Shown here in pieces: positions 62,500 through 63,921 of a stretch of 64,000 bases of DNA. The translations under genes were made by a program, and so were the position numbers. The stretch spans positions 26,140,642 through 26,204,641 of the forward strand of contig NC_049979.1 in the NCBI RefSeq assembly GCF_000003815.2, given 5' to 3'. Within the stretch, counting starts at the first letter, position 1. Each line of letters opens with the position of its first letter. The DNA comes from Branchiostoma floridae (Eukaryota; Chordata; Leptocardii; Amphioxiformes; Branchiostomatidae). Under the pieces are notes generated by a model, which did no database searches, was not told where the DNA came from, and saw only the letters and a program-made list of their open reading frames with translations.

Positions 62500-63780
62500 T
62501 ACTTATACCCGTACATGCCCGTCAGCTGGCCCACAAACAGACAAACAAACAAACAAACAGGTACTTACGGTGTTGAACCTGTAGTAGATGAGATGTTTGA
62601 GGTCCTTACACATGCGGATCTGCCGCATCAGTTTGTACTTGTACCTGTACATGCCTGTCAGCTGGCCCACAAACAAACAAACAAATAAACAAACAAACAA
62701 ACAAACAAACAGGTACTTCCGGTGTTGAACCTGTAGTAGATGAGATGTTTGAGGTCCTTACACATGCGGATCTGCCTCATCAGTTTGTACTTGTACCTGT
62801 ACATTCCCGTCAGCTGGCCCACAAACAAACAAACAAACAAACAAACAAACAAACAAACAAACAAACAAACAAACAGGTACTTACGGTGTTGAACCTGTAG
62901 TAGATGAGATGTTTGAGGTCCTTACACATGCGGATCTGCCTCATCAGTTTGTACTTGTACCTGTACATGCCCGTCAGCTGGCCCACAAACAAACAAACAA
63001 ACAAACAAACAAACAAACAAACAAACAGGTACTTACAGTGTTGAACCTGTAGTAGATGAGATGTTTGAGGTCCTTACACATGCGGATCTGCCTCATCAGT
63101 TTGTACTTGTACCTGTACATGCCTGTCAGCTGGCCCACAAACAAACAAACAAACAAACAAACAGGTACTTACGGTGTTGAACCTGTAGTAGATGAGATGT
63201 TTGAGGTCCTTACACATGCTGTTTGAGGTCCTTACACATGCGGATCTGCCTCATCAGCTTGTACTTGTACCTGTACATGCCCGTCAGCTGGCCCCCAAAC
63301 AAACAAACAAGCAAACAAACAGGTACTTACAGTGTTGAACCTGTAGTAGATGAGATGTTTAAGGTCCTTACACATCCGGATCTGTCGCATCAGTTTGTAC
63401 TTGTACCTGTACATGCCAGTCAGCTGGCCCACAAACAAACAAACAAGCAAACAAACAAACAAACAAACAAACAAACAGGTACTTACGGTGTTGAACCTGT
63501 AGTAGATGAGATGTTTAAGGTCCTTACACATCCGGATCTGCCTCATCAGTTTGTACTTGTACCTGTACATGCCAGTCAGCTGGCCCACAAACAAACAAAC
63601 AAACAAACAAACAAACAAACAGGTACTTACCGTGTTGAACCTGTAGTAGATGAGATGTTTGAGGTCCTTACACATGCGGATCTGCCGCATCAGTTTGTAC
63701 TTGTACCTGTACATGCCCGTCAGCTGGCCCACAAACAAACAAACAAACAAACAAACAAACAAACAAACAAACAAACAGGT
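62500..63780 (-). repeat. Tandem array of partial PRPF8 exon copies with (TTTG)n spacers
   Basis: Eight copies (one with an internal 26-bp duplication near 63207-63240), plus a ninth truncated by the gap, of the 3' 93 nt of the PRPF8 exon, each with the 5' splice site. On the minus strand each unit reads ...GGGCCAG|CTGACGGGCATG ... AACACC|GTAAGTACCTG and then (TTTG)n. Unit lengths vary with n. The encoded 31 residues are the same in every full copy; differences are at third or degenerate codon positions. One copy (62711) has GGAAGT in place of GTAAGT. Confidence 0.93.
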
Positions 63781-63786
63781 ACTTAC

Positions 63787-63921
63787 GGTGTTGAACCTGT
63801 AGTAGATGAGATGCTTGAGGTCCTTACACATCCGGATCTGCCTCATCAGTTTGTACTTGTACCTGTACATGCCCGTTAGCTGGCCTACGTGGGCGAAGAT
63901 GTACTGCAGACCGTCAGACAA
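63787..63921 (-). CDS. PRPF8: PRPF8 (pre-mRNA-processing splicing factor 8), one internal exon
   Basis: Acceptor ctgtgtttcag|TTGTCT at 63921, donor AACACC|gtaagt at 63787, 45 codons, phase 0 at both ends. It encodes [20 protein letters not shown], then [20 protein letters not shown] and YRFNT. This matches the N-terminal region of human PRPF8 at essentially every residue except Ser for Ala at position 2. PRPF8 is the central U5 snRNP scaffold of the spliceosome. The following residues in the family (GPVGKG...) are not found anywhere downstream in the window. Confidence 0.95.

Follow-up and report, generated by a model that had tools for sequence, protein, structure and literature searches.

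Synonymous variation in an intronic array of PRPF8 exon copies in Branchiostoma floridae suggests exchange with the working exon

Beside an intact exon of the PRPF8 gene of Branchiostoma floridae stands an intronic tandem array of copies of the last 93 nt of that exon, and the exon and its copies differ from one another almost exclusively at synonymous sites. Spliced-out sequence is expected to drift freely. The array is probably a minisatellite of the kind called a mirage in amphioxus, in which the working exon and the copies exchange sequence in both directions and across haplotypes, with selection acting on the exon only. If copies are indeed traded back into exons, repeats within an intron would carry protein-level selection without translation, a non-coding array could multiply the diversity of an exon, and tests that search for hidden exons by their synonymous bias would yield false positives.

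The working exon and its intronic array

The window, meaning the whole stretch of 64,000 nt analysed here, corresponds to C1:26140642-26204641 of a 513-Mb assembly (513,431,437 bp in 431 contigs). It carries on its minus strand a PRPF8 exon with 43 of 44 aligned residues identical to residues 575-618 of human Prp8; the exon matches the Pfam profile PROCN (E=8.9e-24), and yeast Prp8 matches it at about 7e-18. The tandem array reported beside this exon in the preliminary description was found, with eight full-length 93-nt copies and one more cut at an assembly gap (Table 1). The unit of the array, 136-164 nt long in the window, joins the exon's final 9+93 nt to the donor region GTAAGTACCTG and to a (TTTG)n tract, and GTA/GGAAGTACCTG(TTTG)n stands 3' of each full-length copy.

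Table 1. Exon, intronic copies and gap in window 62400-63921; ^ marks an exon boundary.
Feature	Position	Strand	Details
Working-type PRPF8 exon	63787..63921	-	135 nt, 45 codons, about human Prp8 aa 574-618; acceptor CTGTGTTTCAG^TTG, donor ACC^GTAAGT
Intronic copy 1 of the exon's last 93 nt	63631..63723	-	intact, with donor
Intronic copy 2	63487..63579	-	intact, with donor
Intronic copy 3	63331..63423	-	intact, with donor
Intronic copy 4	63173..63287	-	115 nt; 22-bp internal tandem duplication, frameshift
Intronic copy 5	63037..63129	-	intact, with donor
Intronic copy 6	62885..62977	-	intact, with donor
Intronic copy 7	62721..62813	-	frame preserved; donor reads GG, not GT
Intronic copy 8	62569..62661	-	intact, with donor
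Intronic copy 9	62500..62525	-	truncated at gap; Arg to Gly and one synonymous change
Entire intronic array as sequenced	62500..63786	-	inter-copy spacers 43-71 nt (donor region, (TTTG)n, GGGCCAG)
100-N assembly gap	62400..62499	.	interrupts the array; far side in window without further PRPF8 exon

It had also been stated that the full copies all encode the same 31 residues and that each possesses its own 5' splice site. Each statement is true of seven of the eight, the exceptions being copy 4, whose frame is shifted by the duplication, and copy 7, which has lost its donor. In the cut copy 9, AGG is changed to GGG next to a synonymous change of TAC to TAT, and damage is thus present in three of the nine intronic copies of the window. 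The proposed acceptor GGGCCAG proved to be something else, namely the exon's own Val-Gly-Gln codons duplicated along with the remainder (exon GTAGGCCAG, copies GTGGGCCAG, one with GGGGGCCAG).

An open frame of 240 codons (63232-63954, minus strand) spans the exon, three copies and their spacers. It arises because the lengths of units 0-2 are divisible by three, those of the later units being not so, and it is read as chance. A search of Rfam returned no match at gathering scores and three sub-threshold matches near the array, and an inverted-repeat-like stretch at 62145-62216 has weak sub-threshold matches to Rfam microRNAs. A single stretch was picked out by a phmmer search with a translated piece of 10 kb.

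Synonymous excess within the array

Events were counted as the number of alleles minus one at each site, with copy 4 aligned after removal of one 22-bp repeat and copy 9 taken as a partial copy. The exon and the seven full copies free of indels vary at nine nucleotide positions, with 11 events that are all synonymous. Copies 0-8 present 12 synonymous and no replacement events, in addition to one frameshift and one lost donor, and the exon together with all copies of the window presents 13 synonymous events vs 1 replacement event, the ratio among the intronic copies alone being 11:1. Under plain neutrality, with transitions given a weight of 2, the probabilities are P=2.8e-8 for 13:1 and P=5.1e-7 for 11:1. 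A stricter null was adopted because comparison with a constrained exon inflates the synonymous differences; here the exon lineage is granted full constraint, the expected synonymous share being at most 2f/(1+f), about 0.36 for this array. The excess persists under this null (P=1.5e-5 for 13:1 and P=1.0e-4 for 11:1), so that the near-exclusive synonymous variation claimed in the preliminary description holds.

Three different nucleotides occur at each of two positions (codons 2 and 31), so not all of the variation can come from two alleles joined in tandem. Of 45 site pairs, 7 conflict in the four-gamete test, which points to exchange or to repeat mutation. Copies differ from one another by 0.22 per synonymous site, above the population value of 0.0397 given for B. 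floridae in the available part of PMC12862219, and neighbouring copies are not more similar than distant ones (permutation P=0.45). Changes private to single intronic copies of the window number five synonymous and one replacement; they were left unused because one of them (codon 10 AAG) also occurs in a copy on C76, the second location described below. A blind scan of tandem pairs for three-base periodicity, covering 66, 84, 17 and 12 pairs from four stretches and having low power, gave 0 of 179 pairs at 1e-3 and six of 179 at 1e-2; five of those six fall in this array, the other PRPF8 arrays being missed.

Two locations in the assembly

All 24 matches to the PROCN profile across the assembly lie either on C76, where they make up nearly the whole domain, or on C1, where they comprise this exon and its copies and nothing further on that contig. 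A longer PRPF8 probe, applied to the window and to two C1 pieces past it (partly N), found no other PRPF8 exon, and C76 carries PRPF8 exons both upstream and downstream. On C76 the array counts five intronic copies, all intact, and then a short remnant before other intron sequence, the end of the array being thus visible; the corresponding number on C1 is nine copies or parts up to the gap. The window has nine junctions from spacer to copy, and C76 has six.

The two locations have the working exon, units 0-2 and the 93-nt sequence of copy 3 in identical form; copies 4 and 5 of C76 match no window copy exactly. Over an alignment of 988 columns the two arrays are 97.4% identical. The array in the window is accordingly a piece of PRPF8 adjoining a gap, belonging either to another haplotype or to one haplotype assembled twice, and its copy number is uncertain.

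Partial exon copies elsewhere in PRPF8

On C76, 35 PRPF8 exon segments were located by means of a human PRPF8 probe without the C-terminal part, and detection at the DNA level found adjoining partial copies for ten of them, amounting to 30 copies, all on the same strand. The region with these ten segments is covered by the pieces L009, L010, L011 and L015 (C76:120001-159500). Pooling the ten arrays gives 88 synonymous vs 29 replacement events (P=2e-15, synonymous share 0.39), distributed over the three codon positions as 18:11:88, and the excess persists when the window-type exon is set aside (78:29, P=1.4e-12). Protein-guided detection (11 arrays, 84:20) favours conserved copies, and the main count for that reason relies on DNA-only detection.

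Taken singly, seven of the ten arrays have P below 0.05, the remaining three standing at 4:2, 7:4 and 14:11. The bias is found at both exon boundaries, with 38:10 (P=1.7e-8) in arrays of the 5' boundary and 46:17 (P=5e-8) in those of the 3' boundary, one mixed array (4:2) being excluded from this split. It is accordingly also present in 5'-boundary copies that lack a copied donor, and two C76 copies contain stop codons within arrays that show it. A count over nine exons from a single 10-kb piece came to 43:12 for seven copies in four arrays, from which the 13:1 of the window does not differ significantly (Fisher P=0.28). One 112-nt copy, in an array of one or two copies, carries 13 synonymous events.

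Nine pairs of spacers or flanks were compared, three of which (two 3'-side arrays, working exon vs copy) provided rates. In these three, with approximate numbers of sites, substitutions in spacers (28/167) resemble those at synonymous sites (20/72, P=0.06) and exceed replacements (5/243, P=9e-8). Two copy-to-copy spacer pairs have 76% and 78% identity. In four flank pairs on the 5' side the aligned parts share 84-92% identity and the alignments contain 22-42 gap columns, so that divergence of the flanks does not clearly surpass that of the exon parts there.

Tracts of (TTTG)n occur at several PRPF8 junctions, also in the intron directly before the exons beginning at aa 218, 367 and 958. For comparison with another gene, five C12 matches to the RNA polymerase family PF04998 (of 11 in total) were inspected and none was accompanied by an exon copy, the set including one 42-nt match of 76% in the tail beyond the open part of an exon. 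This sample is too small against the 10 of 35 in PRPF8 to tell whether PRPF8 is special.

Two-way exchange filtered by the working exon

In the proposed model, the 3' end of the PRPF8 exon was evidently duplicated into the following intron together with its splice donor and a (TTTG)n tract, and then amplified, as the composition of the unit indicates. The copies would normally be removed with the intron, which is spliced from the first donor. The pattern of substitutions suggests that copies and exon exchange sequence in both directions, within and between haplotypes, through gene conversion or unequal crossing-over. Any sequence passing through the exon position would there be filtered for protein function, with replacements purged and synonymous differences persisting, and the copies would thus constitute a reservoir for the exon and not exons themselves. 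The same process, to a varying degree, may lie behind the partial copies at nine other PRPF8 exon segments.

The need for a filter follows from the copies being old, as judged by their diverged spacers and synonymous sites, and yet poor in replacements. Copies acting as exons would make a poor filter, given their acceptor of copied coding sequence, the absence of a branch-point A in eight of nine spacers, their nature of one-boundary fragments and their damage. The working exon would make a good one if sequence does pass through its position. The exchange itself is read from the pattern of differences, with no event seen directly.

The model was simulated in a haploid version with whole units and with distance ignored. 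With ten units, selection restricted to the exon and exchange left free (N×c=50-200), it gave means of 8.4-10.1 synonymous and 0.8-2.4 replacement events for nine units, 92-99% of the replacements being confined to single copies. The chance of finding no replacement given 10-14 synonymous events was 0.09-0.47 over the same range, and the agreement with the observed 12:0 is fair, not tight. Simulations with 20 units gave 14.3:2.5, and raising diversity to 0.06 gave 11.3:1.9. Exchange inside one array only was also tried and discarded, since at N×c=50 it homogenised the copies to 0.2 synonymous events. Of the three readings in the preliminary description, gene conversion with the real exon is the best supported, with the amendment, imposed by simulation, that it must be two-way and between haplotypes.

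According to the excerpted text of PMC12500494, a paternal meiosis in B. floridae has 96.1 non-crossover conversion events per 73.0 Mb, each 99 bp long on average, and the effective population size is about 1.7 million in that of PMC12862219. Combined, and taken as a mean of the two parents, these figures come to about 370 on the scale of the simulation for allelic sites. The required rate of exchange is hence plausible for allelic sites, and the rate for misaligned units may differ. In arrays of one or two copies the synonymous divergence is greater than free exchange among so few copies should produce; such arrays would have to have been larger in the past, or their local mutation rate to be raised.

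A more general proposition, which we offer tentatively and hold to be possible more than probable, is that intronic arrays trade with the working exon often enough for the exon segment to evolve like one with an effective population several times the actual size. Selection would then act indirectly against replacements in the copies, the copies being future exons, and the synonymous diversity of the segment would be several-fold above that of the rest of the exon. This would concern at least ten PRPF8 segments.

Alternative explanations

The copies could owe their pattern to being captured from the exon recently and in one direction, from diverse exon alleles that a raised local mutation rate may have provided. 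Simulations of such capture gave a fair fit when local diversity was set at 0.2 (6.9 synonymous, 0.5 replacement events), but merely 1.9-2.0 synonymous events at the published diversity of 0.04. Moreover, spacers in two other arrays have diverged about as much as synonymous sites, which gives those units an old appearance, and the C1 and C76 exons are identical, although these may represent one haplotype. We regard this explanation as rather doubtful. That each copy is itself under selection, as an alternative exon, a splicing decoy or a splicing enhancer, with replacements removed copy by copy, is unlikely. Constraint simulated on every unit (N×c=20) does give the best match to the undamaged copies, with 11.8 synonymous and no replacement events, all five intronic copies on C76 are intact, and the unit has phase 0-0, from which it had been suggested that 31 codons could be spliced in without a shift of frame. 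Such splicing is disfavoured by the damaged window copies, by eight of nine spacers having no A between donor +8 and the last AG, and by the bias extending to 5'-side copies without a copied donor and to arrays with stop-bearing copies. Mutually exclusive or cassette exons would be marked by a donor on each copy and by an acceptor with a branch point in its own spacer; here the acceptor is copied coding sequence, such an A is missing from eight of nine spacers and one copy lacks GT, though a branch point might lie in an upstream copy. Since the exon still matches yeast Prp8, an insertion of 31 residues would also be unlikely to work.

An assembly artefact, in which all or part of the copies stem from alleles or misjoined reads, is very unlikely. 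It draws weight from the position of the window piece next to a gap, with the remaining PRPF8 on C76 and only this exon on C1 (by the PROCN search, and by the longer probe for the pieces it covered), from the identity of exon and units 0-2 and the close alignment of the two arrays, and from 668 bp elsewhere in the window that recur at 99.7% close to another gap. Against it stand the repeated junctions from spacer to copy at both locations, with an array on C76 that ends in other intron sequence, the positions with three nucleotides, and the other PRPF8 exons with arrays of the same kind. The misassembly reading of the preliminary description thus fails as a cause of the synonymous pattern, but the window piece is a fragment of uncertain copy number. 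Neutral intronic copies from a single burst of duplication, without exchange, would agree with three window copies being damaged; this is hardly credible, being rejected even under the strict null by the counts from this array and from the ten arrays pooled, and simulated exchange at N×c 0.01-2 leaves 33-191 replacement events.

Comparison with known systems

Tandem exon duplications, including mutually exclusive exons, are tandem coding copies inside a gene, and the PRPF8 array resembles them in this and in its phase 0-0 unit. It departs from them in that its copies are fragments of an exon with copied coding sequence as acceptor, the 5' third of the exon having no GT donor where the copy starts (GGCCAG^CTAACG). 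In concerted evolution, repeats exchange by gene conversion and the functional members are under selection. The proposed exchange shares both traits, but only one member, the exon, would be functional here, the others being its intronic fragments. The turnover of tandem repeats is discussed in PMC3087553, as far as its excerpted text goes.

Closest are the amphioxus mirages, which the available portions of PMC3087553 and PMC3902484 describe in Adh3, the globins BflGb6 and BflGb9, PGBD5 and troponin C. Their units measure 150-160 bp in BflGb6 and 157 bp in BflGb9, and the two haplotypes of BflGb6 have 6 and 3 copies. Going by these portions, mirages and the PRPF8 arrays have in common a minisatellite-like tandem duplication of the exon-intron boundary, the involvement of both 5' and 3' boundaries, units near 150 bp and many copies with splice signals. 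Undisturbed normal splicing is a further mark of mirages. In the present array the tandem repeats span the boundary, containing exon end, donor and intron start, and the array end is seen on C76. The PRPF8 arrays thus appear to fit the mirage minisatellites already in print. They differ from mirages as described there in the (TTTG)n tract of the unit, in affecting ten exon segments of an essential gene, and in the strong synonymous excess of the copies, those portions giving no count of synonymous and replacement changes. Titles and abstracts of the open-licence papers listed yielded neither a synonymous pattern nor a PRPF8 mirage. The PRPF8 arrays would offer a direct test of the speed of mirage turnover and of the route from mirage to new intron proposed in the excerpted part of PMC3087553.

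Other features of the window

The 668-bp repeat occupies 41211-41878 and 43009-43676, each member having a 50-bp minisatellite next to it and the gap at 40835-40934 close by, and is either a real duplication or a false haplotype duplication. The segments 346-574 and 40007-40234 share 93.9% identity; the stretch that separates them contains polycystin-domain and PKD-channel exons, together with weak REJ matches below the cut-off, and tandem polycystin-type genes are likely there. A tandem array of a 164-bp unit (3.6 copies) is located at 10182-10767. On the minus strand, an open frame of 1071 codons at 51738-54950 contains about 20 similar 132-bp TPR units and is NPHP3-like.
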